NCBI GenBank assembly: GCA_030603805.1
Contig: JAUVXD010000001.1
Coordinates: 191,518 to 255,517 of the forward strand
Reading direction: 5' to 3'
Source of the DNA: Acholeplasmataceae bacterium
GTDB lineage: Bacteria; Bacillota_I; Bacilli_A; Acholeplasmatales; Acholeplasmataceae
Length of the DNA: 64,000 nt
The first letter of the stretch is position 1. Every line of letters starts with the position of its first letter. A model generated the notes under the pieces. That model had not been told where the DNA came from, searched no databases, and worked only from the letters and a program-made list of their open reading frames with translations. A program made the translations under genes and the position numbers. Positions 11,159-51,242 of this stretch are shown here, in pieces.

Positions 11159-12163
11159 TTATTTATTTTTGTCGAGCAGATTGTTTCCAAGCAACCATGG
11201 AATGATTAAGTCAATGGTTGTAAAGGCAACACCTGTCACTGTATCTGCTGCGCCATAATAGATGGCGATTTTACCTGTTTTTGAATCTGCCAATGCTGCA
11301 CATGGGAAGACTACATTAGATACATCTCCATTTAGCTCATAATCTGTGTAGGGGGCTAAGAGATAATCTTGAGATCTTGCGATCACCTTTGAGGGATCAT
11401 TTAAGTCAAGGAGTGCAGCACCCATGGAGTAATGATACCCATTACATGAGCGCAGAACGCCATGATAAATCAGTAACCATCCTTGATCAGTTTCAATGGG
11501 TGATGGACCAGCACCAATCTTTAAGCACTGCCATGCGCTATCTTCGAAAGGTGCAACCCCTAAAACAAATCTATGTTTACCCCAATAAATCAAGTCTTTA
11601 CTTTGACTTAAGAAGATATCACCAAATGCAGTGTGTCCTGTATCACTTGGTCGTGAGAGCATGACGTAATGTGAGTTAATCTGTCTCGGGAAAAGCACAC
11701 CATTACGATTAAATGGGAGGAATGCATTTTCCATTTGATAAAAAGTTTGAAAGTCATCGGTGTAGCCTAAGCCGATGGTTGGCCCGTGATAACCATTACA
11801 CCATTGAATATAATAACGTCCATTGATTTCAACCACTCTAGGATCGTATTTATAATCAGATGTTGCAAGTGTTTCAAAGTCATGTGCAACAAACGTAATT
11901 GGAGATTCATCAATCGTCCAGTTTAAGCCATCTTTGGAAAATCCTCTGTGGATATTCATTTGTCTTGCACGATTGTCACACCGAAAGACACCAGCAAACC
12001 CATCTTTAAATGGGACAACAGCACTATTGAAAATGCTGTTTGATGATTTAATTAAGTTTCTAGGGATGATTGGATTTTTAGAATACCTCCAGATGATTTC
12101 TTCAAAACCTTGTGGACGATCTTCCCATGGCATGTTTGCAATCGGTTTACCAATGATTTTCAT
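11159..12163 (-). CDS. GH130 family beta-mannoside phosphorylase
   Basis: 334 residues, no signal peptide, so cytoplasmic. It shows the five-bladed propeller signatures of GH130 enzymes: [20 protein letters not shown] near the N-terminus, [16 protein letters not shown] (about 102-117), [20 protein letters not shown] and [14 protein letters not shown] at the end. Known GH130 enzymes phosphorolyse beta-1,4-mannosides; one branch splits Man-beta-1,4-GlcNAc, the N-glycan core disaccharide, into mannose-1-phosphate and GlcNAc. With GH85, GH38, GH125 and nag genes around, that specificity is the likely one here, but this is inference. It is the first gene of the minus-strand operon running to the left edge. 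GAGGT lies 5 bases before ATG. Confidence 0.88.
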
Positions 12164-21901: not shown

Positions 21902-24900
21902 TTAAACGCGTCCGAAGACTTCTAATTCTTGAATACGTGAGTGATTATCAATTTGTGAACCTTGAGTGACAATAATTCTGACATATCTGCCTTGGATTGG
22001 TGTAAATGCATGTGAAGTTGTTGCTGCAACGTTATCTGTGACTTTTGCAACCATCACCCAATCTTCTAAATTCGTACTGATATAAACCTCATATCCTCTG
22101 GTATTCCAGATGCGTGTATTGCGATACGCAGGGTCATTATCAGCATGATAAAGGATGACCTCAGAAATAAAGAATTGTCCTCTTAAATCGACGATAATCC
22201 ATTTATTACCGGTGGTTGTTGCATCAGTTTCACACCATTTGGTTGCAAGATTGCCATCGATCATATATCTTGGATGTTCATCAGGTCTTGTTGGGTTAAA
22301 TCCTGAAAATGAGTGAATGCGTGCATTACCCGTGAGGTTGCTGACATTTGCTGCAATATTGGATACCGTAATTGCATAATCCACTTGATAGGAGTTACTT
22401 CCTAGAATGTTAAACGTGCTCAGTTTGACTGGGTAAACACCTTGATTTTCATAACGAACGGTCACTTGTGGTGAGGTCAGTGTACCAGTAACAAGCGTTG
22501 CACCAGGAAGTTCCCAAAGTACTGAATCTGTAATTTGTGATATGTTGGCAGTCAGTGTGAGTGTTTCTTGAGTTTTAACAACTGTTTTACTTGCTATAAT
22601 TTCAATTCTTCCACCAGCAATTGCTTCTGGCCAATCAAAGGTGAGTTGAGACTCTCCAACAACACGATTGACTTTATCATAAGCACGTAAAACGAGTTTA
22701 CCTGAAACATCATAGTCACTGATATTTGAACCATCATTTTTAACTAAACGTTCAATATTTTTGACATAAAGGAAATTATGATAGCTTGCACCAAGATATT
22801 GAAGTTCTCCAAGTGAATTTTCATGATAAACACGATATAAAATCGAATCATTTAAATGCTCTAAGACAACAGGTGCCCAAGTGAGTCGCATATCTGCACG
22901 ACGTGCAAATTGGAAACCACTTTGAACGATGGTAAATCCATTAATCTGTGCATCATAATCATCAGTTTGCTCTTGTCTATGAAGGTTTAATTCACCAAAA
23001 TTGACTTTATAATTGACTGGATTTTCAGCACCAACTGCAAATCCAATCGAGGTGATTTTCTTTCCTGCATAAAGGGATAAATCTAAGGTTTCAAGGAGCC
23101 ATGCGTCTGCTTGAGTTGGAGATAACGTCAGGTAGACAGTATCTTCATACCATGTTTCACCTTGCTCAAACGTGAGCTTAACGGCAACATCTGCTGCTAA
23201 ACTATTCACCTTATATCTTAAATCGAGTTTGGTATTTTCAAAGACATCTAAATAAGTCTTATACACTTTAAAATCTGTGTTATTATTTCCAGTCAGTTCA
23301 CCAGAAATGACTAATGATGTGCCACCAAGATAAGCATCATCATAATCAAACTTAATATCCATAGGTGTACCTGCACCGTGTACATCTTTCACCCATCTAA
23401 AATGGGGTTGAATGTCTTGGACGGATAGGTTACTCCAACCCTCAGTTAAATTTGAGATTTGCTGCCCATCTTTAAAGTATTGTTTACCGTTTCCGGTATT
23501 AAAGCTTGTATAGAATCCTTCGCCCATCACGGTTGTTCTTTCAACGATAAAGCTTGCGACTCCATACCAACCATTAGGATTATTCACTAAATCAACAAAG
23601 GCATTTCTTGGATCGCCATCAAAACCTACCCAGAAATCAGATGCTCTTTGTAGATATTGTTCATAAATGTTTCCACCAGGTTGTCCATCACGATTAAATG
23701 TCCAATCGGTACGATAGAATCCAATCGATGTATAAGGAATAAGTGTTTCTGGATCAAAGAAGCGATTCCATTGCCATGGTGTATTGGTACCACTTGATCT
23801 TACATATCCATATTGTTGTGTATCAAAGCCTGTATAAAGTTCATATGGGCTTCTTCCTAATGAAATGGCTCTTTGAGCAGATTCTCTAATACGTGTGGTT
23901 GATCCGCCATAACGTCCATCCCATCTAAAGTCGATGAATAAGGAATTAGATAATACTTGGTCACCATTTTGGAAGTATAAATCGTTATTGGCATTGAGTG
24001 CACCTTGCCATGAAATGCGTCCATTAATGTTTAATGAATCATAGTTTTGGATAATCATTTCAGGATAGTGAATATCTTTTTGTTCTTGAATATAAATTAA
24101 GAAATCTCTAAAATTAGCTGCAAGTTCTAAATTTGTTGAACCTGGATCTGTTTCTAAGTTGATAAACCATCCATCAAATTGAAAATACTTCGCCATTTGA
24201 ATCATTTTATCTGCAATTGGAAAGTTACCTTCAGCATCCTTTTGAAGCATCTTATACGTATTACCGATGGTACCACCAAATGCTGTAGGTGCCATAAAGA
24301 TGTTACCTAAAATAGGAACACCATTACGATGTGCTGAATTAATAATATCTCTAGATGGAATCACAAAACTTGCGATTTGTCCACCCCAAGCAACAGCAAC
24401 ATCCACATATTGCCAGTAATCGACGGTATAGTTATGATAACCTTGGAACGTTGCAACACCTGCGGCATTGACTGGCGTGAAAACATCTAAAATAGCAACA
24501 CCAGGCAGTGGAGATTTCGCGTTTGGATTAATACCTTGACCAGTCATTCTAGGTTGTAGTGGAATGGTGCCAATCCCTGTATATGGGTCATCTGCTTTAG
24601 GTTCCCAAGTGAAAACATCATCAATCATCAGATAAAGTAGACCTGGCTCTTGTGCAAAGCTGGTTTCAATATCAGTCGACCAAACGACACTTGAAGGTAA
24701 TACCGTGATTTCACGGAATTGATATGGCGTTTGTTCACCACCTGTTGAAGTGAGTGTGATTTCATTTTGTGTATTATTGTCCATATCCTTCACAGAATAA
24801 AAGACTTTATAATAACCCGGATTAGCAATAGATGTGACGACTTGATCGTTTTGATTTCTAATTTCAAATGTGATTTGAGTTGATAAATCAATACCGATAC

Positions 24901-25780
24901 CATCGACTGCAGTTAAGCCATCGAGCGCATTAAACTGTTCAGCTTGTGTGAGGGTGAGTGCACTCCCTGCAGATGATGCATGAATGATTGGTTTTGTTGA
25001 AATTGGTAAAACTCTAAATGTAATGACTTGGCTTTGTCTTAAGTTGTTGTTATCATCATAAGCAAAGAAACGGATTGAATAGTCACCACTGGTTGCAAAA
25101 TCGACAGTGCCTTCAATACTCATTAAGGATGTGACATCATTGCCTTCAAAATCAATGGCTCTAATGTTAAACTCTGTCGTAATATTGCCTGTAAATCCTC
25201 TAACAACTGAAAGTTGATTGGAGGATGGTAGGTTAATAATGGTGGGTTTACATACATCAAATACACTTTCAGGACCACATAAATCCGGATCTATGGTTGT
25301 GCCATTATTATGGGCAACGAGTGTATCTAAGCTACTTTTTGCTTGTTGAACAACATGTGCAGCCTCATGTGCTGTATTACTTTCTGCAACACGGTCCTTA
25401 TAATTATTGATGACACCTTGAAAATAAGCAGATAGTTCAGTGCTAAACCCTGTTCGATCCACATAATTTTCAATTTCTATATAAGCAGCATTTTGTGCGT
25501 TAACTGCATCCAAAATACCTTGAAGTGAAGCTCTACCTGATTCATAGAGCGCGTTGACTTGTTCAACAGTTTCAGCTTCATAAAGTGAGTTTTTAATTTG
25601 TGTTAATGTTTGATTAAACAAAGTCTTCATTCGATCAGGAAATCCTGATGGGTCAATGAATGCTTCGATTTGTTCAACTTTTTCTTCTTGTGCTTTAACA
25701 AGGGGATCTTCTTTTTCACTACATGCAACGATAAACAGTAGAGAAAATACAACCACAAGTAAAAGTATGAGTTTCTTCAT
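21902..25780 (-). CDS. Surface lipoprotein GH85 endo-beta-N-acetylglucosaminidase
   Basis: 1292 residues. Lipobox FIVAC with Cys20 anchors it outside. Residues about 38-160 hold two similar helical repeats (DPSGFPDRMKTLF and DRTGFSTELSAYF), then Ig-like strands (about 180-370). The GH85 barrel (about 385-720) carries the catalytic pair in FDGWFINLE: Asn541 and Glu543 in the N-x-E spacing used by GH85 for substrate-assisted hydrolysis. Beta-rich modules follow, then a PKD-like domain and a C-terminal F5/8 type C (discoidin) module (about 1150-1290, with RYMIDGNLATKW). GH85 enzymes cut between the two core GlcNAc units of N-glycans, releasing high-mannose glycans for import. It shares an operon with the upstream coiled-coil lipoprotein. 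Confidence 0.95.
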   Translation of the reverse strand: MKKLILLLVVVFSLLFIVACSEKEDPLVKAQEEKVEQIEAFIDPSGFPDRMKTLFNQTLTQIKNSLYEAETVEQVNALYESGRASLQGILDAVNAQNAAYIEIENYVDRTGFSTELSAYFQGVINNYKDRVAESNTAHEAAHVVQQAKSSLDTLVAHNNGTTIDPDLCGPESVFDVCKPTIINLPSSNQLSVVRGFTGNITTEFNIRAIDFEGNDVTSLMSIEGTVDFATSGDYSIRFFAYDDNNNLRQSQVITFRVLPISTKPIIHASSAGSALTLTQAEQFNALDGLTAVDGIGIDLSTQITFEIRNQNDQVVTSIANPGYYKVFYSVKDMDNNTQNEITLTSTGGEQTPYQFREITVLPSSVVWSTDIETSFAQEPGLLYLMIDDVFTWEPKADDPYTGIGTIPLQPRMTGQGINPNAKSPLPGVAILDVFTPVNAAGVATFQGYHNYTVDYWQYVDVAVAWGGQIASFVIPSRDIINSAHRNGVPILGNIFMAPTAFGGTIGNTYKMLQKDAEGNFPIADKMIQMAKYFQFDGWFINLETDPGSTNLELAANFRDFLIYIQEQKDIHYPEMIIQNYDSLNINGRISWQGALNANNDLYFQNGDQVLSNSLFIDFRWDGRYGGSTTRIRESAQRAISLGRSPYELYTGFDTQQYGYVRSSGTNTPWQWNRFFDPETLIPYTSIGFYRTDWTFNRDGQPGGNIYEQYLQRASDFWVGFDGDPRNAFVDLVNNPNGWYGVASFIVERTTVMGEGFYTSFNTGNGKQYFKDGQQISNLTEGWSNLSVQDIQPHFRWVKDVHGAGTPMDIKFDYDDAYLGGTSLVISGELTGNNNTDFKVYKTYLDVFENTKLDLRYKVNSLAADVAVKLTFEQGETWYEDTVYLTLSPTQADAWLLETLDLSLYAGKKITSIGFAVGAENPVNYKVNFGELNLHRQEQTDDYDAQINGFTIVQSGFQFARRADMRLTWAPVVLEHLNDSILYRVYHENSLGELQYLGASYHNFLYVKNIERLVKNDGSNISDYDVSGKLVLRAYDKVNRVVGESQLTFDWPEAIAGGRIEIIASKTVVKTQETLTLTANISQITDSVLWELPGATLVTGTLTSPQVTVRYENQGVYPVKLSTFNILGSNSYQVDYAITVSNIAANVSNLTGNARIHSFSGFNPTRPDEHPRYMIDGNLATKWCETDATTTGNKWIIVDLRGQFFISEVILYHADNDPAYRNTRIWNTRGYEVYISTNLEDWVMVAKVTDNVAATTSHAFTPIQGRYVRIIVTQGSQIDNHSRIQELEVFGRV

Positions 25781-28179: not shown

Positions 28180-28233
28180 ATTTCTCTCCTTATTTTACTG
28201 ATTTTTTGATTTTTAACACAAGAATGTATAGAT

Positions 28234-28247
28234 AATGTATATACAAG
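28234..28247. promoter_or_regulatory. Candidate GntR operator, leader of the GH85 operon
   Basis: AATGTATATACAAG contains the perfect 10-base palindrome TGTATATACA (28236-28245). It lies about 20 bases downstream of the -10 box of the GH85 operon promoter. A second degenerate copy (TGTATAGATA) is at about 28224-28233. Confidence 0.65.
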
Positions 28248-28355: not shown

Positions 28356-28379
28356 AAAAAAAGCCTTTGACGGCTTTTT
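28356..28379 (-). terminator. Terminator of the region A gntR gene
   Basis: On the minus strand AAAAGCC and GGCTTTT pair around a 6-base loop, followed by a T-run (28356-28360). The stem begins at the stop codon of the gene. Confidence 0.75.
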
Positions 28380-29085
28380 ATCTAAATGCATGTTGGATGA
28401 ACCTATATTGATCTGCACGGTAGTATGAGGTAACATATTCAAATGGATGTCCATTATCTAAGAAAGTATTGAGTGTAATGTGAAGTACGGCATTGTTCAA
28501 AGGGATCCCTAGATACTTAGAAACTGTCTCATCAGCATTCACTGCTTCAATTGATTGAATCGAGAAATTGATGCTCATCTTGAGTTCTTTTTCTATATAG
28601 GTATATAAAGACTCTCTAATGATCTGCTCAGTTAAATCTTTAAATATTCTTCTTGGGAGAAAGAGTGTTTCATATAAAACGGGAATACCATCTGCAGATC
28701 TGATACGCTCGATTCGGTATACTTCTTCGTTTTTATTGAGAAAGAGTTTGGCTGCAACTTCTTCAGAGGCTTGCATTAAAGTGAATGAAGCAACTTTATT
28801 AGTAACTTTTCGGTTCATGAGCTGCATCTCTTCTGTAAAACTCAGTAATCCTTGGATTCTTTTTTCCATCTTCGTATGATTGACAAAGGTTCCTTTACCT
28901 TTATGTCGGTAGAGGAATCCATCGTTGACAAGGTTGTTTAAAGCTTGTCTGACAGTCATCCTTGATACACCATAGGTTTCTTTAAGTTCATTTTCTGATG
29001 GGATTTTCATGCCATGTTTAAGTTCGGATTTTTTGATTTTTTCTTTAATTTCATTTTCGATTAGCTGATATGATGGGACTCTCAT
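28378..29085 (-). CDS. GntR/UTRA transcription regulator of region A
   Basis: 235 residues from ATG at 29085, preferred because AAAGG lies about 8 bases upstream; the longer frame has no better start. The N-terminal winged helix (about 5-70) has the GntR pattern ENELKETYGVSRMTVRQALN (recognition helix) and wing GFLYRHKGKGTFV. The C-terminal UTRA domain (about 85-235) binds small effectors in the HutC/NagR subfamily, with YRIERIRSADGIPVLYE typical. Its position beside nagA-nagB, and operators resembling NagR/DasR-type sites, suggest a GlcNAc-6-phosphate, GlcN-6-phosphate or mannose-phosphate effector. It probably represses region A operons and itself. Confidence 0.9.
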   Translation of the reverse strand: MRVPSYQLIENEIKEKIKKSELKHGMKIPSENELKETYGVSRMTVRQALNNLVNDGFLYRHKGKGTFVNHTKMEKRIQGLLSFTEEMQLMNRKVTNKVASFTLMQASEEVAAKLFLNKNEEVYRIERIRSADGIPVLYETLFLPRRIFKDLTEQIIRESLYTYIEKELKMSINFSIQSIEAVNADETVSKYLGIPLNNAVLHITLNTFLDNGHPFEYVTSYYRADQYRFIQHAFR

Positions 29086-29141
29086 GGGTCTACCTTTCTC
29101 GCAAGTCAAGATACAACTTTACGTTTAATTCTACTATTTTC

Positions 29142-34944: not shown

Positions 34945-37884
34945 TTATGATAATTTAAATGTCTTCACTTCAAATGGGCTAAAGTGGACAATCTTCTTAG
35001 AATGTGTGGATAGTGATTCTTCAACTAGGTTAGATAACTCAGCTTTTTGGTACTTAGTATTGAATATAACTTCAGCAGATACCATGTGATTTGACTTATT
35101 ATAAAGTCTAACAACATCGTAACTTTCATGAAACCCTTTTTTAATTGCCGACACTTCAATGAGTGGTTCATCAATTGATACAACCTTTTCTAATGGTAAT
35201 ATTTTGGCAAAGGTTGGCTTAAATGCGTTAAAAATCATTGCTTTTTGATCGATTTCAGCCTCTTCATGATTACCCTTGTGAGAAAGAATCTGATAACGAT
35301 AAGTGGTTTTATCAATATCGCCATTATGACATGGATAGTTGGTACTTCTTAGTAAATTCATATCTAAGACTTGATCTTTGACATAAAACCCGTATTTTGA
35401 TGAATTGATCAATGAAAAGCCACAAATACCATCCGTGACTGAAACCCATTGCTGTCCTGGAACTTCAAACTGTGCACTTGTGATTCTGTTTTCATTTCTT
35501 GCGCTACGTTTGATTTCACCAAATTGAATATCAAATGTAGCTTCATCAAAGACGATATTCAGTGGAAATGATGTTCTAAGCATATAGCCAACATCTTTCC
35601 AATCGAGTTCATGATGAAATGTAATCGCATCTGTTTCTAAATCGACTAAAACCGTTTCAATTAGTGTTGATTTCTTATATTCATATAAATTCTCTATTTC
35701 AACAAGTGCTTGATTTCTTCTCATCTTTTGAGACTTTAATGTCATGACTTCTGGGGTTTGTTTGCGGTAATGATCTGAAATATTCCATGCATCCCCTTTA
35801 TCTTGATAAACTGCAAGCACATTACCTGGAGCAGACAAGATTTCCTTCATGCATCTTAAATCCTTAATCGAATCTAGGGCTCCTGTTTTTGAATTAATGG
35901 ATATAATTAAATGCTTCGTTTGAATCGTTTTAAGTGCTTCTACGTTTTCTAGTTTATGAACTCTTTTTGGACGACTCATTTCAAAAGCACCCACTTCATA
36001 AGATAGATATTCATGATTTGATTTTTCAGTCCACCTAATGGGATAAGATAACGGATTAAAGAGCGCTTTATCTATCGATGTGCCTTTTTGATAGGTTGGA
36101 TCAATTGTTTCAAAGATTTGATCTAGTGCTTGATCTAAAACAAGATATCGTGCAAGACACTCATCATAAACACGTTTAATTGATGATCCTGGTAATATAT
36201 CATGGAATTGATAAAGTAAAACTTCTTTCCAAATGTCATCAAGCTTCTCTTTGATTTCATATGACCAAGCATTTGTCATAGTCAGTAAGATTTCTAGAGA
36301 TCTTAACTTATGTTCCATATGACGATTATATTTTTTAACATTAGCTTGTGAGGTATAAGTGCCTTGATGATTTTCTAAATAAAGTTCACCTTGCCAGGTT
36401 GGAAGTTTGTCTTGATATTTTTCTAGTTCTTTAAAATAAAGATTAGAATCTGCATATTCTACCTTTGGTAGAGGACAAAGATTATGCTGACGGTCGATTC
36501 TCGCTAAATGTTCATAGCCTGGACCACCACCGCCATCACCAATCCCATAAACAAGGAGTGCAACAGGTGCGATTTCTTTTTCTTTGTAGTTCACATCAGT
36601 TAAATGAATAGATCTTGGAGATGCAGAACTGTTATAGGTCCCTTCGGGTGGCATATGTACTAATACTTTAGATTGATCAATGCCTTGCCAAAAGTAACTA
36701 TGATAAGGAAACTTATTGATGAGACTCCATGAGATCTTTGTTGTCATAAAATAATCTAAACCAGATTTTTTAATGATTTGAGGCATGGCACCGCTATAAC
36801 CAAAGACATCAGGTAGCCATAAGTTTTTAACTCTAACCCCAAATTCTTTTTTGTAATATTCAATACCATAAAGCATTTGTCTGACTAATGCCTCTTCACC
36901 TGCAACATTGGTATCGGATTCCACCCACATACCTCCTTGAAGTTCAATACGACCTAATCCAACATAATGTTTAATTTTTTCAAAGAGTTTTGGATAATCT
37001 TGCTTGATCCAATCAAGCAGTTGAGGCTGAGAAATACCAAAAATAAAGTGTTCATGATGCTCAATCAAGTCAATGACATTAGAAAGTGTACGTCCTGCTT
37101 TTCTTCTGGTCTCACGTATCGGCCATAACCAGGCTAAGTCGATATGTGCATGACCTACAGCATATACTTTTAAGGGATTATTCGTTTTGGTTAAAAGAAG
37201 TTCTTCAGTCATCTTTAAGCTTCGATCTAACCATTCTTTTTCTTGATAAATAACTAAATAGTATAAATCAAGTAAGGTTTTTAAATACGTTGGATAAGGT
37301 TCTTGATTTCTATCAATCACTTTGATGAGGGTAATTAATGTATCTAAATCATCATAGAGTTTCGAAAGTTTTGGGTCTCTATAAATAAGTTCAAAGGTTT
37401 TCATTTCACCTTGTTCACAAAGCACACCAAAAAGATCATTGGATCCACCTTCAACCCACAAATCAACTTGACCATCTTCACCAATTAAGTGATTGATTTG
37501 ATATATGGTTTTACCAGGCTCACCGTGTGTCTTATCGAAAGTTGAACTCCCATTGGTAAAACCCTTAATCGGTGTTCCAGTGGAATCAAATAAACATGCT
37601 TCACCTGATAAATCAAGTTTTAAATAAACAGGTTCTTTTGTTTTCTTTATCTGTCCTTTAAGATGAAACCACCCACAAAGAAATAATCTACCCCAAGTAT
37701 CTCCTTTTTTAAAGGGTTTTAAGGCATATTTTTGAATATCCTTAAACAAAACAGGTTCATCAGTGATAAAACCTTCCATCGATAAGGATGCTGCATGAAT
37801 ATCTATTTTGGGTTTAATGATGTTTTCTTTCATGTGAACGAGCTGATCAATGAGCCCTTTTTCATAATCTAAGTTAAATTCCAT
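34945..37884 (-). CDS. GH38 alpha-mannosidase, long form
   Basis: 979 residues from ATG at 37884, chosen because GAAAGGA lies 5 bases upstream; an ATG at 37902 in the same frame has no ribosome binding site and lies in the preceding gene. Asp249 in GHAHIDLAWLW is the metal ligand and Asp359 in WLPDVFGYSGAMPQ the likely nucleophile. The catalytic Zn/His set and C-terminal beta-sandwich region are as in the 15136 paralogue. It follows the unknown 705-residue gene with overlap, so the two should act in one pathway. Confidence 0.92.
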   Translation of the reverse strand: MEFNLDYEKGLIDQLVHMKENIIKPKIDIHAASLSMEGFITDEPVLFKDIQKYALKPFKKGDTWGRLFLCGWFHLKGQIKKTKEPVYLKLDLSGEACLFDSTGTPIKGFTNGSSTFDKTHGEPGKTIYQINHLIGEDGQVDLWVEGGSNDLFGVLCEQGEMKTFELIYRDPKLSKLYDDLDTLITLIKVIDRNQEPYPTYLKTLLDLYYLVIYQEKEWLDRSLKMTEELLLTKTNNPLKVYAVGHAHIDLAWLWPIRETRRKAGRTLSNVIDLIEHHEHFIFGISQPQLLDWIKQDYPKLFEKIKHYVGLGRIELQGGMWVESDTNVAGEEALVRQMLYGIEYYKKEFGVRVKNLWLPDVFGYSGAMPQIIKKSGLDYFMTTKISWSLINKFPYHSYFWQGIDQSKVLVHMPPEGTYNSSASPRSIHLTDVNYKEKEIAPVALLVYGIGDGGGGPGYEHLARIDRQHNLCPLPKVEYADSNLYFKELEKYQDKLPTWQGELYLENHQGTYTSQANVKKYNRHMEHKLRSLEILLTMTNAWSYEIKEKLDDIWKEVLLYQFHDILPGSSIKRVYDECLARYLVLDQALDQIFETIDPTYQKGTSIDKALFNPLSYPIRWTEKSNHEYLSYEVGAFEMSRPKRVHKLENVEALKTIQTKHLIISINSKTGALDSIKDLRCMKEILSAPGNVLAVYQDKGDAWNISDHYRKQTPEVMTLKSQKMRRNQALVEIENLYEYKKSTLIETVLVDLETDAITFHHELDWKDVGYMLRTSFPLNIVFDEATFDIQFGEIKRSARNENRITSAQFEVPGQQWVSVTDGICGFSLINSSKYGFYVKDQVLDMNLLRSTNYPCHNGDIDKTTYRYQILSHKGNHEEAEIDQKAMIFNAFKPTFAKILPLEKVVSIDEPLIEVSAIKKGFHESYDVVRLYNKSNHMVSAEVIFNTKYQKAELSNLVEESLSTHSKKIVHFSPFEVKTFKLS

Positions 37885-37894
37885 AAGATTCCTT

Positions 37895-40012
37895 TCAGTC
37901 ATGGATGATTAAAGTTTCCAGACGATTACTTAATAGGATTGGGATATGTAAGACGTTGCTTTCTGCATGATAACCAAAATCTATGATTTTATCCCCAAAT
38001 ATGACTTCTTTAGGTACTTCATTTGCTTTTAAAACCACATAACCATTGATTTCTTTTTTACCTTGTAGCTTAATCATTGTTTGACCAAACACTTGCTGAT
38101 GCTCTAAAATGCGGTAAGTTGAGCCCATCACTTCATGATGTTTAGCTTTCTTTACATCAAAATAAATAGCAACTTCACCTGGTTCTATCACAGGATTTTT
38201 AATGAGTTCAAACGTTTTTGAAAGCATATTTAAGTAATAGCCTTCTAATGTTAAATGATCAGGCTTGCATGTTTCATCCATCACTGAAATGATTTCATAA
38301 GACCCTCGTTTCAGTCTAATATAAGGTTTTGGCTCAAATGATCTAGCTTGAGCTTTTAAGAGCTTCATAAAGAACTGTGTATATAAAGATTTATGAATCA
38401 CTTCTTTGGTTAATTTATAGGGTGCTGTTTGAAAATATCCAAAAAGTCCTTGACCTACAGGATAAATACCAGTCATATGGTGATTGACACCTAGTGTTTC
38501 AAATAAATGTTTTCTTGGTGTGTATTGAGCTTGTTTTTGATTCCACCAAGCATTGACATGATGAAATGGATCAGAATCATCACCTACATATAGTAAAATC
38601 TTACCTGATTCGACAAATCTCTTTAAAGCATAATGAATATCTGGTGTCAGCGGCTTCATAAATTCATAAGATAGCACGATCATATCATAATCCTCTAAAT
38701 AGGATTCAAAATGCGCTGCATGATCTAAAATGACACCCATGAGGGGCACACCCATCTTAAGTAATGGAAGTGCTAAACCATAGTAATCAGGAAATTCAAT
38801 CGAAACTTTATGAAGGTTAACTTCACAGGTTTCATTTTGTGGGGTTTTTCTTTGATACATGGCAGAATCAGATAGACATAAACCAACTTTTAAGTCGACA
38901 CCTTCATAATGAGGTTTACTTAGCGGCATATCTCCTAACATTTGAAATGTATTATTGAGAAGCACATCATAGGATGCTGGAATGAACTTAGGTTCAACTA
39001 AAGATGGGCTATTGTTATCAATTCTTGGAAGTTTTCTTTTAAAGACACGTGTTGGCCAAGGACAAATCTCATATTGATTCACTTGTGGATGGAGTAGGGA
39101 TGCTACCAAAGTTCTTTGGTAATCATAAGCATATGTCTCCCATGTCAGTCCTGGGTTATCTTCAATCGGGTCATTTAAATACCACATGGTCTTCTTTGAT
39201 CCATAATTAAGCCCAGAAACGATGCCATATTCTAAAAAGGCTGTTTCAAAGGTTCTCTCTTTTTTAACGCCTAAATAACGATTTTGAACCTTTGCAGTGC
39301 CTGCCCAAATTTGACCGATGAATCCATCCACCTCATTTAAATGTGCAAGCTTAGATTCTGGGGAGACCAAATGCCACTGGGTATAATTTAATAAGCTATG
39401 GGTTGGTATATACACAAAAACATTTTGATTATAGGTTTCTTTTCCATAAAGTTTTATGGCATAGGCAATATGTGCGATGGCTCTCGTATATAAATGTGAC
39501 TTAAGCTGTGCGACTTTAAAGATTTGATTATGGTTATCTAGCGTTTGATTATAGGGCTCTTGATAATAGATTTCATATTCTCTTTCAAATGCTTTAGAAT
39601 ACCCACCGTGTTGCCAAAATTCAGGTTCCTCTAAATGAATATGATAAACACCTTGGTCAATGATTTTTTTAAGTTTTTCAATCATGTAATTGGCATAATT
39701 TAAGGTAGGTACCATATAAGGTACATCAACACCATGAAGAATGTATTGACCATCTTTATCCATTTGAGCTTCATCCCAATGGTTTTTACCATCGAATTTA
39801 CCATAGAGATAATCTTCATAATGACCCCAAGCGATACCTGTCATGAAATGCACGTGATAGCCTTGTTCTCTAAACTGTTTAATTCTTTCTTCTGCATTGT
39901 TGTGAAAACCATAAACCATGACAAAATCATAAGCCATATCAATAGCATCACTAAAGACTTCTATTTCTTGAACACCTGTTTTAAACACTTTAGAATCTCT
40001 TTTGTATGACAT
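37895..40012 (-). CDS. Unrecognised cytoplasmic protein, possible glycoside hydrolase
   Basis: 705 residues, no signal peptide. I do not recognise a named family. The N-terminal half reads like a TIM barrel: a strand VHFMTGIAWG (about 53-62), then HIHLEEPEFWQHGG (about 144-157) with two adjacent acids near a strand end, and TMWYLNDPIEDNPG (about 285-298). Residues about 450-510 resemble a Rossmann-like beta-alpha unit (YDMIVLSYEFMKPL and SGKILLYVGDD), as in GH42-type beta-galactosidases, and the last 150 residues look like a beta-sandwich (with EPGEVAIYFDV). The upstream promoter has a good operator, and the gene overlaps the downstream GH38. A role in the glycan pathway is inferred from this. 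Confidence 0.55.
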   Translation of the reverse strand: MSYKRDSKVFKTGVQEIEVFSDAIDMAYDFVMVYGFHNNAEERIKQFREQGYHVHFMTGIAWGHYEDYLYGKFDGKNHWDEAQMDKDGQYILHGVDVPYMVPTLNYANYMIEKLKKIIDQGVYHIHLEEPEFWQHGGYSKAFEREYEIYYQEPYNQTLDNHNQIFKVAQLKSHLYTRAIAHIAYAIKLYGKETYNQNVFVYIPTHSLLNYTQWHLVSPESKLAHLNEVDGFIGQIWAGTAKVQNRYLGVKKERTFETAFLEYGIVSGLNYGSKKTMWYLNDPIEDNPGLTWETYAYDYQRTLVASLLHPQVNQYEICPWPTRVFKRKLPRIDNNSPSLVEPKFIPASYDVLLNNTFQMLGDMPLSKPHYEGVDLKVGLCLSDSAMYQRKTPQNETCEVNLHKVSIEFPDYYGLALPLLKMGVPLMGVILDHAAHFESYLEDYDMIVLSYEFMKPLTPDIHYALKRFVESGKILLYVGDDSDPFHHVNAWWNQKQAQYTPRKHLFETLGVNHHMTGIYPVGQGLFGYFQTAPYKLTKEVIHKSLYTQFFMKLLKAQARSFEPKPYIRLKRGSYEIISVMDETCKPDHLTLEGYYLNMLSKTFELIKNPVIEPGEVAIYFDVKKAKHHEVMGSTYRILEHQQVFGQTMIKLQGKKEINGYVVLKANEVPKEVIFGDKIIDFGYHAESNVLHIPILLSNRLETLIIHD

Positions 40013-40126: not shown

Positions 40127-40155
40127 ATCTTAACATGTCTATACAATTATGTCAA
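40127..40155 (-). promoter_or_regulatory. Promoter of the unknown protein-GH38 operon with operator in the spacer
   Basis: TTGACA (40150-40155 on the minus strand), 17 bases and TAAGAT (40127-40132). The operator CATGTCTATACAAT (40134-40147) fills the spacer, the same arrangement as at the GH85 operon. Confidence 0.8.
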
Positions 40156-40229: not shown

Positions 40230-40925
40230 TTAAGTGAGTATTTTTTTAATTTCTTTTGTAATTAAATCATATCCATTTTGATTGATATGTAGTCCTTCTA
40301 CCGTATATGTTTTATCTAAATTACCTTTGTCATCAAGTAATTTGTCGTATAAATTAAGATAAGACACACCTTCTATGGTTTGATAAAGTGCATTTAAAGC
40401 TTGAATGTTTTGATTTGTTCTACCCCCAACACTCATCTGATCCAACGTAGGATTCACTGGATATACAGAAATCAATATAATCTTTGTTTGAGGTATTTTG
40501 AGTTGAATCAACTGGACAACTTTTTTCATCCGATTATAGATATCTTTAGACTTTGCATTTAAGACTCCAAAATCATTGGTACCCATGAGGATAATGACAT
40601 GTGAAGGATTTAAATCAAAGATTGATTCATCCATCCGTTTTAAGAGTCCTTCTGTGGTATCGCCGCCAATCCCTCTGTTATAGACTGTATATTCAGAAAA
40701 ATATTCATAGACATTATAGTCTTGAGTAATCGAGTCTCCAACAAACGCAATCCCACCTTTTTGAATGAACTGATTTTGTTTTCTAAAGCCTTGAACTTTC
40801 GCTTCAAAACCGCTCTTGATGAAAAGACTTAAAAGAAAGTTCATGCCTTGTTTCTTGCCATATCCATAGATATAAAGACAAGCTAATGGAAATAAGATTA
40901 CTAAAACAATTAAGACATATTCCAT
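40230..40925 (-). CDS. SGNH/GDSL-type esterase with N-terminal membrane helix
   Basis: 231 residues. An N-terminal hydrophobic helix (about 2-20) precedes the SGNH hydrolase domain. Motifs: FVGDSITQ (nucleophile Ser, about 64-71), NRGIGGDTT (Gly block), LMGTNDFG (Asn block) and VEGLHINQNGYD (catalytic His/Asp). This family often deacetylates or cleaves esters on carbohydrates. As the last gene of the region B operon, it could remove O-acetyl groups from an imported or surface glycan. The substrate is not indicated by the sequence. Confidence 0.85.
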   Translation of the reverse strand: MEYVLIVLVILFPLACLYIYGYGKKQGMNFLLSLFIKSGFEAKVQGFRKQNQFIQKGGIAFVGDSITQDYNVYEYFSEYTVYNRGIGGDTTEGLLKRMDESIFDLNPSHVIILMGTNDFGVLNAKSKDIYNRMKKVVQLIQLKIPQTKIILISVYPVNPTLDQMSVGGRTNQNIQALNALYQTIEGVSYLNLYDKLLDDKGNLDKTYTVEGLHINQNGYDLITKEIKKILT

Positions 40926-40928
40926 AGA

Positions 40929-42641
40929 CTACCTCACATGGGCTTTAATCAGCATACACGAATCATCTAAACAACGAACTCTAACTTTTTCTAATGTTGC
41001 AGGAATGATAAATGTTTCAGCATAATGGATTTCATAAGGTTCAAATGAATCATCCAGTGATTCAATTAAAGCACGTTTACCTGAAACAAGATTTCCCATA
41101 TTGACAGAACCGAAAGTTTTAATTTCTACAGTGTCACTAAAGGTATATCTTCTCGTTTCTAAAAATTCTCTTTCATGAAGTCCAGTGATTTCTTCAGTAT
41201 CACTCACCTTTTTGATGACATTAACGAGTTCTTGATCCACCCACGAGGTTGTTCGATCATACTGTAAGGCCTTAAATCCGTGTTCTAAATGCACAGGACG
41301 GGGTTTCCCATCTAGGCCTAGTCTGCCCCAGTCCCAAAGCTTAAACGTGAAAATAAAGGAGGTTGCACTAATTTCTAGCACTAACGTATTTTTACCTGAA
41401 CAGTGAATGGTTCCTGCAGGAATTAAGAAATGGTCGTGTTTTTTTGCAGGATATATATTGACATATTTTTCAGCAGGAAAATCGAGTTCTCCTTGAGCTG
41501 CTTTTCTCATATCGTGCTCAAATGCTTTTTTATCGATATCTTCCTTAAATCCAAGATAGACCGTGCCATCATTTTCTGTATCTAATATGTAATAAGATTC
41601 ATCTTGTGTAAAAGGCATGCCAAATTTGTCATAAATATATTCAGTGAGTGGATGCACTTGAAGTGAGAGATTGCCACCACCCATGGTATCGAGTAAATCA
41701 AAACGAACTGGGAAATTTCTGCCAAATCTTGCATGGACGCGTTCGCCCATTAAAAGTCTTGGTCTAAATAAAACCAAATCATTGGCAGGTATTTCAAAAA
41801 TACCTTCATTAAACCCTAATTTAATACTGTTTTCTTCGGGTACACCATCAAATGACCATGCATAGTTTTTTTCACTAGGATCTAGATTACAAACTTCTTT
41901 CATCCACTGTCCACCCCAAACACCAGGATCAAAATAAGGCACCATTCTAAAGGGACGTGTTAATAGGTGGTCAAGCGCATGAAAATAGGCATTTTTAGTC
42001 ATCATCACAGGACTATTTGTTAAAGTATAGTCGATTAAGTAGGTTGCATGTTCCATGATAGATAGTTTAATGCGATCTGCAACACGCCATTCAATAAAAA
42101 ATCCACGTTTATATTTTTTTAAGATATCTTCTTTAGGGTTGTGTTTCTTAAAGTTGGAAAAGCCTTTACGATAGCGTTGTTGAATTTCCCATCTGGTTAA
42201 AGAAACATAAACCAAATGTGTATGATGGATAAGGCTTGCACCAAACCCGTAAACAATGGTAAGTCCTTTTTTTTGATTGAGTCTTTTTCTTAAACTACGA
42301 ATGAGTTCCATTTGGTAAAATTCATCAATCGTGTGATGTGAAACAAGACCAAAGACTCTATCATCTGTTAAATTTTTATCAAGCATGAGGTCGATTTCGG
42401 TCTCAGACTTTGTATAATCTTCAATAAAAACAATTTCATCAGCCTTGAGTGGATTGATGATATCTTTTAATAAGATACTTAAATCAATACCTGGATAAGT
42501 TTCAAATACGATAATGCCTTCTTTGATGCTTTGCAAAGCTTCAAGAATTTCTTGTTTGTCCTTAAAAAAGTCATTTGAATCTGACTTGATTGGGATAATT
42601 GGAGATTTGTCATAAAGTGATTTAAAGTTTAAATAGCTCAT
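40929..42641 (-). CDS. manA: Class I mannose-6-phosphate isomerase with long N-terminal extension
   Basis: 570 residues, against about 310-320 for short bacterial ManA. The C-terminal part (about 240-570) has the type I features: NLSLQVHPLTEY (zinc), DESYYILD, IPAGTIHCSG (metal His) and FKLWDWGRLGLDGKPRP. It interconverts mannose-6-phosphate and fructose-6-phosphate, linking mannose release to glycolysis. The N-terminal ~220 residues contain segments such as EGIIVFETYPGIDLS and RVFGLVSHHTIDEF that look like a kinase-type alpha/beta fold without a P-loop lysine. The start overlaps the stop of the YesL-like gene by the TGATG arrangement. Confidence 0.9.
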   Translation of the reverse strand: MSYLNFKSLYDKSPIIPIKSDSNDFFKDKQEILEALQSIKEGIIVFETYPGIDLSILLKDIINPLKADEIVFIEDYTKSETEIDLMLDKNLTDDRVFGLVSHHTIDEFYQMELIRSLRKRLNQKKGLTIVYGFGASLIHHTHLVYVSLTRWEIQQRYRKGFSNFKKHNPKEDILKKYKRGFFIEWRVADRIKLSIMEHATYLIDYTLTNSPVMMTKNAYFHALDHLLTRPFRMVPYFDPGVWGGQWMKEVCNLDPSEKNYAWSFDGVPEENSIKLGFNEGIFEIPANDLVLFRPRLLMGERVHARFGRNFPVRFDLLDTMGGGNLSLQVHPLTEYIYDKFGMPFTQDESYYILDTENDGTVYLGFKEDIDKKAFEHDMRKAAQGELDFPAEKYVNIYPAKKHDHFLIPAGTIHCSGKNTLVLEISATSFIFTFKLWDWGRLGLDGKPRPVHLEHGFKALQYDRTTSWVDQELVNVIKKVSDTEEITGLHEREFLETRRYTFSDTVEIKTFGSVNMGNLVSGKRALIESLDDSFEPYEIHYAETFIIPATLEKVRVRCLDDSCMLIKAHVR

Positions 42642-43255
42642 CAGTTTTCATATCCTTCCTCTTCGTCTATTTCCCCTAATTGTTCTAAAAAGGGGCGAAA
42701 TACTTTTTTAAGGTGAAAGCTTACCAAAACACCATAGAGACCAACAGCAATCAAGATCAAACTTTGGTGAACAAAAATCACTAACAAAATGAAAAAGGCA
42801 AGACTCCCTAAAACCTTGAAATTTGTCCATAGATTGGTATTGGATAATAACATAACGTTTTTAATTAAATCGCTTGCACGTTTTGTTTTAAATGTTGCAC
42901 ATACTGGAAAAAAATAAATTGCAAAGATGATCAGTTGATAAAACCCTACAATCGCAAGCACGATCATAAAGACTAAATCGTTATTTAAAGCATAGTGGTA
43001 CATGAAAAATAGGGGAACACCAATCGCCATCAGTGCGAGCCAAACCAATGTGCTGATTACAAAGTTTTCTTTGAAACTTTGAAAGAATAAGGGTAGCACA
43101 TTGGTTGGTTCACTCTTTTTTAAGATTTGTTGGGTGACGCGAAACATCGCTGTTGTTGCGGCACCGGTTGTGATCAGTAACCCTAAAAAGCTTGCTAGAA
43201 TCCAGATGAAGTTGACGAATATCATATCTGTGAGTTTTCTAAACAGCTCTTTCAT
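42641..43255 (-). CDS. YesL-like (DUF624) membrane protein
   Basis: 204 residues with about five helices, resembling DUF624/YesL proteins (MIFVNFIWILASFLGLLITTGAATTAMFRV is the first helix, with the internal GAATTA element). It is a distant paralogue of the 19649 gene. It is translationally coupled to manA. YesL-like genes often accompany carbohydrate importers, but the function is unknown. Confidence 0.7.
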   Translation of the reverse strand: MKELFRKLTDMIFVNFIWILASFLGLLITTGAATTAMFRVTQQILKKSEPTNVLPLFFQSFKENFVISTLVWLALMAIGVPLFFMYHYALNNDLVFMIVLAIVGFYQLIIFAIYFFPVCATFKTKRASDLIKNVMLLSNTNLWTNFKVLGSLAFFILLVIFVHQSLILIAVGLYGVLVSFHLKKVFRPFLEQLGEIDEEEGYEN

Positions 43256-43272
43256 GAGTTCTTATCCTTTAA

Positions 43273-44100
43273 TTATTTCTTTAATACCTTTTTGAAAACG
43301 AAGAATCCGCCTGCACCAACTGCAGCAACGCTTAAAATCACGATAACAAGTAAGCCAGTATTAAAGAAACTACCAGTCACTTCAAAGTCTTCACTTTCAA
43401 CAAAAATCACTTTACCAACGCCATCTCCATCTGGAGCTGTTGGGTTATAGAATCTAAGTTCTTCATAAAGACCTTCATTAATCTTAACGGAGTAGCCTGC
43501 TAAGACTGAAATGTCAGCTTTTCCTACAAAACCAGCAAGGTCAGCAGCATCATAAATAGAATTGAAAATACCATCAATTGCCCAATCTAGAGAAGCTTCA
43601 ACGATTGCTTTAGATTCTGTGAACTTTAAAGTTCTTGTGAAACCACCAGATACTTCAAGTTTTGGAAGTTCTGATTCATCAAAGTCATTCCAAGAAAGGT
43701 TAGGTGATAAGTTAACTAAAGTTTGATATTTTGCAACAAAATCATCAAAGCTTGAGAAATTGTAGCTCATTGTAAAGATACGATGATAGCCTTCGACTTT
43801 AGCTTCATGAACCGTAATAAAATCAGGTGCATTTTCTTCTAACCATGTTTGAATCGCAATGACACCACCAGTAATGTGCTTATCATTTAAGACAGCACCT
43901 TTGCCTTCTGTTTGATCTGGATCATCAGGATTGATGATTGGAGTTGTTGACAAAAGGTCATCCATGACATCTAAGATAATATATCTTGTGCCTGAACCAT
44001 CAGCATTAAACTCAGTGCTGACAGTAATTTCTCCTGGCCAACATGCGGATAATGCAAAAGCCAGAACAAGTAAAACGAGTAATGATAAAGCTTTCTTCAT
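43273..44100 (-). CDS. Lipoprotein with C-terminal transmembrane helix, unknown function
   Basis: 275 residues. Lipobox ALSAC with Cys20 suggests lipid anchoring; a C-terminal helix (about 247-270) ends in KKVLKK, so the protein may be attached at both ends. The body is beta-rich, with ADGSGTRYIILDVMDDLL and an LppM-like feel (STEFNADGSGT). I do not recognise a family with confidence. It lies between the MalF-type permease and the YesL-like gene in the region B operon. Confidence 0.6.
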   Translation of the reverse strand: MKKALSLLVLLVLAFALSACWPGEITVSTEFNADGSGTRYIILDVMDDLLSTTPIINPDDPDQTEGKGAVLNDKHITGGVIAIQTWLEENAPDFITVHEAKVEGYHRIFTMSYNFSSFDDFVAKYQTLVNLSPNLSWNDFDESELPKLEVSGGFTRTLKFTESKAIVEASLDWAIDGIFNSIYDAADLAGFVGKADISVLAGYSVKINEGLYEELRFYNPTAPDGDGVGKVIFVESEDFEVTGSFFNTGLLVIVILSVAAVGAGGFFVFKKVLKK

Positions 44101-44124
44101 ACTTTTTTCTCCCTTTATATTTTT

Positions 44125-45042
44125 TTATCCTTCATCGCCTAAATAAACAACGTATTTATTGAGACGTAAAGCAACCATAGTTAAGATCAGCACAATGACA
44201 AGGAGTATCCATGCCATGGCTGAGGCCATGCCCATTGCTCTATCGGCCATCATCTTATCAAACATATAATATGCATAGTAATATGTTGATCTAGATGGTC
44301 CACCAGAGGTCATAATATAGGCAATCGTAAAGACTTGAAATCCACCAATTAAACTCATAATGAAATTAAAGAAAATGGATGGGGTCATTAAAGGTAGTGT
44401 AATATAGTAAGTTTTCTTAATCCAATTGGCACCATCAATTTCTGCGGATTCATAAAGTGTTGTGGGTATATCTTGTAATTGTGCAAGATAAATGACCATC
44501 GTGCCCCCAGCTGTCCATAAACCCATAATAATGAGTGTAATCTTTGAGGTTTCTTCTGCTTGGTGCCATCTTAAAGGCTCCATGTTTAAAAGTTTATAGA
44601 TGGGATCTAAGAGTTGGTTAATAATCCCAAAGCTTGGTTGAAAGAGCCATAACCATAATAAAGACATTGCAACCACACTGACCACATTGGGTAGATAGAA
44701 CAGTGTTCGATAAACGCTCATGCCTTTAATCTTGTTATTCAGTAAAAGTGCAAGAGAGACCCCAACAACAATCCCTAATGGGATGGCAATGACGACATGA
44801 TAAACCGTATTACCTAAACTTTTCCAAAACAAATTATCATTGGTTAGTAAGATCCGGTAATTTTCAAAACCTATCCATCTAGGAGCGGCAATCATGTTAT
44901 AAGTTGTAAAACTAATATATAACGATGCAAGTATTGGAAATAATCCTAAAACAATGAGACCAAAAAGCCATGGGGATGCAAAAAGATAACCCATCAAGTT
45001 TTCTTGTTTCTTTAATTTTTTGATCGAAATTGTTTTAGCCAT
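44125..45042 (-). CDS. Carbohydrate ABC transporter permease, MalF type (region B)
   Basis: 305 residues, six predicted helices. The EAA loop reads YESAEIDGANWIKKTYYITL (about residues 200-220). It pairs with the MalG-type permease at 46375 and the SBP at 45052. In this operon the SBP gene sits between the two permease genes. The sequence does not tell the sugar; the neighbours suggest a glycan processed by the DUF5005-like proteins. No ATPase gene is here. Confidence 0.92.
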   Translation of the reverse strand: MAKTISIKKLKKQENLMGYLFASPWLFGLIVLGLFPILASLYISFTTYNMIAAPRWIGFENYRILLTNDNLFWKSLGNTVYHVVIAIPLGIVVGVSLALLLNNKIKGMSVYRTLFYLPNVVSVVAMSLLWLWLFQPSFGIINQLLDPIYKLLNMEPLRWHQAEETSKITLIIMGLWTAGGTMVIYLAQLQDIPTTLYESAEIDGANWIKKTYYITLPLMTPSIFFNFIMSLIGGFQVFTIAYIMTSGGPSRSTYYYAYYMFDKMMADRAMGMASAMAWILLVIVLILTMVALRLNKYVVYLGDEG

Positions 45043-45051
45043 AGGGACTCC

Positions 45052-46359
45052 TTAAGGATTAACTGCGTCGTAGTTTTGTTTCTTTTGAATATAGTTTGCT
45101 CTTGCAGCAGCTAATGCTTGTTCTGCAGTTAAAGATCTCGATAATGCTTGATTATAATAAGGCTGCCAGTCATTTCCATGCCAAGAAGGTGCATATGGTA
45201 TGTAAACCTTATCAATGGCATAGTCCACTTCTGCCAGTAATTTCTCTAAAATAGGATTGCCCTCAACATATTCTTCCATGGCAGAAATATGACTCATAAT
45301 CCAACCATTGACTTGTGCTAATCTGATTTGAGTTTCTTTACTCATTAAGTATTTTAAAAACTCAAAGGCACCATCACGTTTAGCTGTTTGGTTTTTATTG
45401 TTGTCATACATTTCAATAGAAAACCCTGAACCCCAGTTCACACGTCTACCGCCCTCTGGAATGGGGATAGGTGCGACACCATAATTAAAGGTTGCGCCAG
45501 CATCTTTAATGACTTGATATAAGCCATCTACTTCAACAATCATTGCAACTCTTTCAGATGCAAAGGGATTAATGCCTAAGGTTTGATTGGCTTCACCAAA
45601 GGTCGTCAGTTGTGCTCTGGTGAAATTTTCATTAAAATACATAATCCATTCTAAGACATCAATATGACCTTGAGTGTTTAAGGTTGGCATTTTGTTTTCA
45701 TCAAAGAAATCTAAATTCTTTTGCCATAACCATCCGTGATAAGTCGCATTCCCGTAAGTTGGATCAAAGCCTAAACGTGTGATTCTATTTTGATTATCGA
45801 CACGATCAAAGAGTTTTGCAACGGTTTCTAATTCTGCCCAAGTTGTTGGAACATCAGCTTCAGTTAAACCCATTTCTGTAAACATATCGATGTTATAATA
45901 TAAAACTCTCGTTGTTGCAGAAAAGGGAAGCGCGAAGAGATGGCCATTATAGGTTGCAAAATCCTTTTGACTTTGTCTAAACTCATTTAAATCAATGTTA
46001 TTGTCTGAGGTGTCATTAGCAATTAACTCAGATAGGTTATATAAAACCCCTGCTTTCGCTCTCGCCTCAACATCATCAATCGTTGAAAATCCTAAATCCG
46101 GTGCTGTTCTTGAGGAAATTGCGACATTGATTTTATCCCAATAATCCCAAAATGAAAATCCAGTACCTCTGACAAAATATTCATCTTGACTGTTATTAAA
46201 GTCGTTGATGATCCCTCTCATGCCAGAAAATGAGGGGGAACCTACAGGAGACATATGCCAAAATTCAATGACGGTCTTATCTCCGGTATCCTCGCCATTA
46301 CATGCAGCTAAAGTCACTAAAGATGCTAAAATCATGAGTATGACTAATACTTTCTTCAT
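45052..46359 (-). CDS. Carbohydrate ABC transporter substrate-binding lipoprotein (region B)
   Basis: 435 residues. Lipobox TLAAC with Cys20. The mature part is a family 1 solute-binding protein: TVIEFWHMSPVGSP at the start, LPFSATTRVLYYNIDMF, PTTWAELETVAKLFD and GAFEFLKYLMSKETQIRLA are all typical. It is the receptor for the region B importer. GGAGGA precedes ATG by about 6 bases. Confidence 0.92.
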   Translation of the reverse strand: MKKVLVILMILASLVTLAACNGEDTGDKTVIEFWHMSPVGSPSFSGMRGIINDFNNSQDEYFVRGTGFSFWDYWDKINVAISSRTAPDLGFSTIDDVEARAKAGVLYNLSELIANDTSDNNIDLNEFRQSQKDFATYNGHLFALPFSATTRVLYYNIDMFTEMGLTEADVPTTWAELETVAKLFDRVDNQNRITRLGFDPTYGNATYHGWLWQKNLDFFDENKMPTLNTQGHIDVLEWIMYFNENFTRAQLTTFGEANQTLGINPFASERVAMIVEVDGLYQVIKDAGATFNYGVAPIPIPEGGRRVNWGSGFSIEMYDNNKNQTAKRDGAFEFLKYLMSKETQIRLAQVNGWIMSHISAMEEYVEGNPILEKLLAEVDYAIDKVYIPYAPSWHGNDWQPYYNQALSRSLTAEQALAAARANYIQKKQNYDAVNP

Positions 46360-46374
46360 TTTTAATCCTCCTTT

Positions 46375-47247
46375 TTAACCTTTAATACCTGTAAAGGTAA
46401 TCCCTTCGATAAAGCTCTTCTGTGTAAAAAAGAAGAGTACTAGGGTGGGTAGCATAATCAAAATAGCCGCAGCCATCATTAAATCAAAGCGTCCACCAAA
46501 TTGAAGTTGAAACGCTCTTAAACCTAATGCAAGTGTCCAATGATCTGGATTACTTAAAAAGATCAAGGGACCAAAATAATCGTTCCATACTCCCATAAAT
46601 GTAAAGAGTGCAACGGTGATGATGGCTGGTTTACATAAGGGAAGCATAATTCTAATAAATATTTGAAAATGATTCGCACCATCAATAATGGCAGATTCTG
46701 ATAACTCTCTTGGAATCCCTTTGAAAAATTGTCTCAGTAAGAAAATATAGAAGGCAGCACCACCCCCAAAGAATGCCGGAACAATTAAGGGCAGTCTCGT
46801 TCCTAACCAACCAATTTGTGCATACATAATATAGGTTGGAATTAAAATCACTTGAATGGGAATCATCATGGTCGCAAGCATAATTAAAAACCATTGATCT
46901 CTACCCTTCCAATTGAGTTTAGCAAATGCATACGCGGCTGTGGTTGCAGAAAATAAGGTTCCAGTCATCACGGTGATGACGATAATTAAACTGTTCTTTA
47001 AATAAAGTAAGAATGGAATGGATTGAACTGCGGTTATAAAGTTTTGCCACTGAGGATCTTTTGGGAAAAAAGACTCTGTGCCCTGAAGCAGCTCTTGAGG
47101 TGTCTTTAGGGCAGTAAAAAGCATCCACAAGAATGGGAAGATAAACCCAAAGCTTGCAGTGATTAAGACCAAGTGAAGTAAAATCTTTTTAATGAGGTCT
47201 TTTTGCTTTTTATTTAAAAGTGGCTTTTTAATGGCTTCTGTCATCAT
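46375..47247 (-). CDS. Carbohydrate ABC transporter permease, MalG type (region B)
   Basis: 290 residues, six helices, EAA loop ESAIIDGANHFQIFIRIMLP (about residues 185-205) and the usual C-terminal EGITFTGIKG. It forms the channel with the 44125 permease. AAGGAAG lies just upstream of the first ATG at 47247. Confidence 0.93.
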   Translation of the reverse strand: MMTEAIKKPLLNKKQKDLIKKILLHLVLITASFGFIFPFLWMLFTALKTPQELLQGTESFFPKDPQWQNFITAVQSIPFLLYLKNSLIIVITVMTGTLFSATTAAYAFAKLNWKGRDQWFLIMLATMMIPIQVILIPTYIMYAQIGWLGTRLPLIVPAFFGGGAAFYIFLLRQFFKGIPRELSESAIIDGANHFQIFIRIMLPLCKPAIITVALFTFMGVWNDYFGPLIFLSNPDHWTLALGLRAFQLQFGGRFDLMMAAAILIMLPTLVLFFFTQKSFIEGITFTGIKG

Positions 47248-47256
47248 TTGACTTCC

Positions 47257-49053: not shown

Positions 49054-49064
49054 AAATTTCTCCC

Positions 49065-51137: not shown

Positions 51138-51148
51138 GATATTCCTCC

Positions 51149-51164: not shown

Positions 51165-51181
51165 ACCCTTAATATATCATG

Positions 51182-51238: not shown

Positions 51239-51242
51239 ATCT

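Follow-up and report, generated by a model that had tools for sequence, protein, structure and literature searches.

A protein family of Bacillota mannosidase operons with a GH42-like body and the probable function of an intracellular glycoside hydrolase

The protein of 705 residues that is encoded at 37895..40012 on the minus strand of the window, by which we mean the whole 64-kb stretch of DNA analysed here, is probably an intracellular glycoside hydrolase of an undescribed family, which would work together with a GH38 enzyme on imported oligosaccharides containing mannose. This is the best reading of its fold, of the invariant acidic residues at the ends of its barrel strands, of the operons with GH38, GH92 and importer genes in which the family is found, and of the secreted relatives that carry CBM9 modules. 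The initial annotation of the sequence had proposed a candidate new glycosidase, and the fold, the conserved acids, the operons and the CBM9-bearing relatives all support that proposal, the activity being a predicted one.

The open reading frame is intact, begins with ATG, comprises 705 codons and encodes no signal peptide by inspection. Its product has no significant match in Pfam, NCBIfam or PHROGs, is not recognised by the GH38 model PF01074 (GH38 is the neighbouring gene), and matches no solved structure in a sequence search of the PDB, where a profile built from 56 aligned members of the family also finds no chain. The 55 homologues, searched against Pfam and NCBIfam, likewise point to no convincing curated family, their best E-values of about 0.001-0.005 being scattered over unrelated families; Imm32, DUF4350 and DNA glycosylases were considered and rejected, as their matches fall below the cut-off, cover small pieces only and differ between members. 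No profile match to a non-glycosidase family appeared. The earlier statement that the protein matches no family therefore stands for the curated models of Pfam, NCBIfam and PHROGs, but not beyond them, since hundreds of relatives exist; in the literature we found neither a description of the family nor a CAZy number for it.

AlphaFold, run on the alignment of the 56 members (A4), produced a model with a pLDDT of 93.8 and a pTM of 0.94, in which the TIM barrel, the GH42-like alpha/beta domain and the beta-sandwich described in the initial annotation are all present. The barrel, which is the putative catalytic domain, spans residues 1-345 (38978..40012, minus strand) according to AlphaFold and DSSP, and Foldseek relates it to GH42 and GH164. 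The alpha/beta domain, resembling the trimerization domain of GH42, occupies approximately residues 375-545 (38378..38890, minus strand) by hhalign against GH42 and by the AlphaFold model, while DSSP on the model delimits the C-terminal beta-sandwich to approximately residues 560-705 (37898..38335, minus strand). Foldseek comparison of the predicted structure, a check that the initial annotation had named, placed GH42 and GH164 at the top over the full length: the best 33 matches in the PDB (E-values of 4e-13 to 3e-11) are GH42 enzymes, the GH164 beta-mannosidase and one alpha-L-fucosidase, all of them glycosidases, with GH31 and GH66 enzymes as weaker matches. Local hhalign against the GH42 profile aligns the middle domain with a probability of 53% (residues 416-527) and the whole length in a colinear, weak manner (48%); global hhalign finds nothing.

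A true GH42 enzyme modelled with the same pipeline served as yardstick for these similarities. Its TM-scores are 0.87-0.99 to GH42 structures, the range that members of GH42 show among themselves, and about 0.72 to the GH164 enzyme Bs164. The TM-scores of the 705-residue protein to GH42 and GH164 are 0.50-0.57 with 9-13% identity (0.50-0.56 and 9-13% for GH42, 0.50-0.52 and 9-10% in structural alignment for Bs164), and therefore the protein lies outside both families, farther from each than they are from one another. It shares with GH42 enzymes (3TTS, 5XB7; beta-galactosidases/alpha-L-arabinopyranosidase) the fold and the same order of three domains, of which the middle one is recognised by profile; in contrast to them, neither the protein nor its 55 homologues match PF02449, the NE motif of strand 4 is absent, EEPE being found in the protein, and by alignment the nucleophilic glutamate of strand 7 is replaced by histidine, asparagine or alanine, with D281 adjacent. 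Bs164 (6T5O, 6T7G) has the same architecture and a mannose context, and its catalytic glutamates, E160 and the nucleophile E297, lie on strands 4 and 7 (PMC7105311); by analogy to the GH42 alignment, this strand-7 glutamate too appears to be absent from the 705-residue protein. The GH5 exo-beta-mannosidase Op5Man5 also combines a TIM barrel with a Rossmann-like domain in a GH42-type homotrimer and releases mannose (PMC8233224), but it has no C-terminal beta domain, and the 705-residue protein has no GH5 profile match of any kind. Sequence, motif and structural distance separate the protein from GH42, and the strand-7 comparison leans against GH164, while the architecture is that of both families; it is best regarded as belonging to a new family within a familiar type of enzyme.

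Conservation was evaluated in 85 sequences, 81 of the core clade plus four distant secreted ones. The motif HIHLEEPEFW, to which the initial annotation had drawn attention for its paired glutamates, corresponds to residues 124-133, and the pair, E128 and E129, is invariant in 85/85; it belongs to the segment E128-E129-P-E131, with which barrel strand 4 ends (39620..39631, minus strand), in which position 131 is either Glu or Asp. Just after strand 7, the segment D281-P-I-E284-D285 (39158..39172, minus strand) has D281 and D285 invariant in all 85 sequences and E284 kept in the core clade only, and strand 8 contributes E315, W319 and R322, equally invariant, in the segment from E315 to R322 (39047..39070, minus strand). 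H205 after strand 5, and Q234 and W236 after strand 6, are also unchanged throughout the set, as are H78, R253 and Y262. A sugar pocket typically looks like this, with conserved polar and aromatic side chains where one barrel strand after another reaches its carboxyl end. Judging from the strand ends of the model, E128/E129, D281, E315 and the other conserved acids would share one such pocket; of the earlier idea of paired acids in a pocket, the conserved acids at strand ends are observed, and the pocket is what we infer from the model.

The comparison with clan GH-A finds acids at strand 4 (E128/E129/E131) and at strand 7 (D281/D285), that of strand 7 being an aspartate and shifted in position. 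The nucleophile position of the clan, equivalent to E307 inside strand 7 of the modelled GH42 enzyme, aligns with His, Asn or Ala, and the invariant D281 follows one residue later; since the strand-7 glutamate is absent by this alignment, the chemistry of the protein may differ from that of GH42. At strand 4, the alignment to GH42 fits E129 or E131 alike as the acid/base. The most likely assignment is that one of these two glutamates is the acid/base, while D281 (or else E315) acts as nucleophile or base.

In terms of distribution, a scan of named genomes identified at least 576 loci encoding the family in Bacillota, 80 of which were retained. One relative is a Paenibacillus plasmid protein of 38% identity, labelled 'hypothetical protein' and encoded directly behind a sugar ABC importer; other homologues are those of Paenibacillus cellulositrophicus (WP_152403512.1) and Eisenbergiella tayi. 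In a whole-genome sample, 56 of 151 Paenibacillaceae genomes carry the family; just two do so among 245 genomes from the class of genome G472 (which is itself counted), and the phylum of the window has two credible cases in 392 genomes. Within the genus of the window, two of 20 genomes have it, namely the genome of the window and one other, G005. The viral contigs scanned contain no relative, and a match within a protein of 4427 residues in genome G341, confined to a short stretch of a repeat-type region, was discarded as probably due to chance. In the phylogenetic tree, the copy of the window and its G005 orthologue form a long branch among clostridial sequences, a placement which suggests that the gene might have been acquired from the clostridial side, long branches being unreliable in this respect.

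Two sorts of divergent relatives deserve mention. Four distant ones (L134-L137), of 1565-1786 residues and with a signal-like start, occur in two Paenibacillaceae genomes; the three that were scanned all carry CBM9, two in combination with SLH and one with Big_2 domains, and one of the four is encoded directly after GH38 and GH2 genes in an operon that also contains a PhyH-type dioxygenase. The other is a homologue of 23% identity in genome G020 (L003), from which most of the residues conserved in the active site are gone and which stands isolated, with no GH38 gene nearby; it is probably an inactive copy, either decayed or repurposed.

The family recurs next to enzymes that break down mannose-rich glycans. 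Among its neighbours at 81 other loci are two ABC permeases (42 each), GH38 (34), a regulator of GntR/LacI type (31), GtaA-like proteins with DUF4964/DUF5127 (23), GH92 (7) and solute-binding proteins, together with putative glycoside hydrolases of the GxGYxYP type, a GH63-like protein and oxidoreductases of the GFO/IDH/MocA group. A recurrent order in Paenibacillus runs from a GntR regulator through two permeases and a binding protein to GH38, the present family and a GtaA-like gene. Across Paenibacillaceae, GtaA-like genes are present in 45 of the 56 genomes that have the family versus seven of the 95 that do not (Fisher p 1.5e-20, uncorrected for kinship; examples of shared loci are L026, L034, L037 and L060), and GH38 in 56/56 versus 79/95, again uncorrected for kinship. 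Probe labelling and a weak beta-galactosidase activity have led to the proposal that GtaA-like proteins are glycosidases (PMC9668830), and in Bacteroides thetaiotaomicron a locus that responds to alpha-mannan contains GxGYxYP genes (PMC4071793). Both are incompletely characterised putative glycosidases co-occurring with our protein in mannose-related loci, as partners that Pfam does not relate to it, and the association with GtaA-like genes suggests that the two proteins serve one pathway. Among the Paenibacillus clusters scanned, no amino-sugar genes were present. In about nine loci of Clostridia, the family adjoins a glycyl radical enzyme (PFL-like) with its radical SAM activase (L010, L013, L016, L018, L029, L048 and L056 among the loci with radical enzymes), a pair that would bring an anaerobic radical step into a mannosidase operon.

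In the window itself, the gene lies in a locus for N-glycans that comprises a secreted GH85 endo-beta-N-acetylglucosaminidase (21902..25780, minus strand), four GH38 genes, a mannoside phosphorylase-type GH130 gene (11159..12163, minus strand), nagA and nagB (identified by reading their sequences), a kinase and ABC importers. The downstream neighbour of the 705-residue protein is an alpha-mannosidase-type GH38 gene (34945..37902, minus strand; Pfam E-value 3.6e-83) on the same strand, with an overlap of 8 bp; consequently the two genes almost certainly form one message, and their co-transcription, asserted in the initial annotation, is borne out by this layout. The entire locus, including GH85 and GH130, is syntenic in G005 with the same gene order, the orthologue of the 705-residue protein adjoining GH38 there too, and only these two of the 20 genomes of the genus have GH85 above its cut-off. 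An interval of the window, 40230-53061, is missing from the otherwise syntenic locus of G005, by insertion in the one or loss in the other; it encodes a GDSL hydrolase, a DUF624 protein, an ABC importer, two proteins with DUF4185 and F5/8 domains and a protein that may resemble phosphomannose isomerase and has no match in Pfam. Three further genes of the locus, 25864-28179 (770 residues), 18301-19644 (446 residues) and 171-2765 (DUF5696, 864 residues), have no informative family match and possess counterparts in G005. A second GH85 gene is found just outside the window (G000:C7:185532-186485), some 5-6 kb ahead of its first position, and the locus may therefore extend beyond the window.

Upstream of the gene for the 705-residue protein, a gap of 217 bp contains a promoter of sigma-70 type, TTGACA-17-TAAGAT with an extended TG (40127..40155, minus strand), the spacer of which harbours a perfect copy of the operator TGTATAGACA (40136..40145, minus strand), in line with the earlier remark that this promoter has one of the best operators of the locus. 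The same promoter, with the same operator, precedes the orthologue in G005. Sites with at most one mismatch to TGTATAGACA number 17 in the window versus 5.3 expected, a count that none of 100 shuffles reached, and most of the better ones fall in intergenic gaps of the locus (12440, 20495, 28225-28236, 29238, 33629 and 40136). The regulator binding to TGTATAGACA is probably the HutC-type GntR protein encoded at 28378-29109. A NagR-like palindrome, TGGTNTANACCA, was also considered as operator and dismissed, being barely enriched, the real operator being TGTATAGACA.

These elements can be assembled in one scheme. Mannose-rich N-glycans would be set free in the surroundings by the secreted GH85 enzyme and taken up through an ABC importer; inside the cell, the 705-residue protein and the GH38 enzyme of the same message would cut them jointly, and GH130, NagA and NagB would complete the breakdown. 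The residues expected to make up the active site are E128/E129/E131 of strand 4, H205, Q234 and W236 of strands 5-6, D281 and D285 of strand 7, and E315 and W319 of strand 8. The enzyme is probably exo-acting.

Which linkage would it cut? The analogy with GH164 and the GH38 partner point to a terminal beta-linked mannose, or a similar sugar, as the likeliest single target, although we put this forward tentatively. A more specific form of the glycoside hydrolase interpretation is that the protein is a retaining beta-mannosidase that works like GH164 and the GH5 beta-mannosidases of GH42 shape: strand 4 would supply the acid/base, D281 would stand in for the strand-7 glutamate, and the enzyme would remove the beta-linked mannose once GH38 has trimmed the alpha-mannoses. 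Bs164 stands among the top structural matches, Op5Man5 is another beta-mannosidase of GH42 shape (PMC8233224), the GH38 partner is conserved, and a secreted relative shares its operon with GH38 and GH2; yet the strand-7 glutamate is absent by alignment, and such an activity is not strictly needed, as the GH130 of the locus can handle Man-beta-1,4-GlcNAc. The same GH130 led us to reject the 705-residue protein as the sole enzyme necessary for Man-beta-GlcNAc, and a beta-mannosidase of this sort is conceivable rather than probable. We are somewhat more doubtful of an alpha-mannosidase, or an endo-enzyme, for those arms of alpha-mannan or N-glycans with a linkage that GH38 and GH92 cannot cut. 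Such a specificity would agree with the neighbouring GH38, GH92 and GxGYxYP genes, the latter being those found in the alpha-mannan-responsive locus of Bacteroides (PMC4071793), and with the weaker structural matches to GH31 and GH66, which are alpha-acting families; against it, the best matches over the whole length are mostly beta-acting enzymes of clan GH-A, even if GH42 includes an alpha-L-arabinopyranosidase.

The families GH18, GH20, GH84 and GH85 use an acid pair in substrate-assisted catalysis. The adjacent and invariant E128 and E129 on strand 4 could act likewise in a hexosaminidase, for which a strand-7 nucleophile is dispensable, and both the missing strand-7 glutamate and the presence of nagA, nagB and GH85 in the N-glycan locus would fit this idea. 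However, the fold resembles GH42 and GH164, not clan K, and the Paenibacillus clusters scanned are devoid of amino-sugar genes, so that we judge a hexosaminidase unlikely. Least probable is that the protein has no enzymatic function, being a catalytically dead derivative of a glycoside hydrolase for binding sugars or for regulation: the divergent homologue of G020 illustrates that such losses occur in the family, but the acids and aromatic residues are strictly conserved in 85 sequences, including the secreted proteins bearing CBM9.

A broader form of the glycoside hydrolase interpretation, which we consider possible while giving it somewhat less than even chances, is that of a widespread family of glycosidases with a GH42 body and a different catalytic layout, devoted to a linkage of mannose-rich glycans for which Bacillota have no known enzyme. 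The layout could then consist of an aspartate nucleophile shifted by one residue, of an acid pair on strand 4 assisting the substrate, or of a glutamate on strand 8. The family, to which the curated libraries are blind, is present in hundreds of Bacillota living in soil, rumen and gut, and in a mannosidase operon that can otherwise be read it is often the chief gene without an explanation. Knowing its activity would give a name to a new family of glycoside hydrolases, complete the pathway by which these bacteria use mannose-rich glycans, and test to what extent the catalytic residues of a GH42-type body are free to change.
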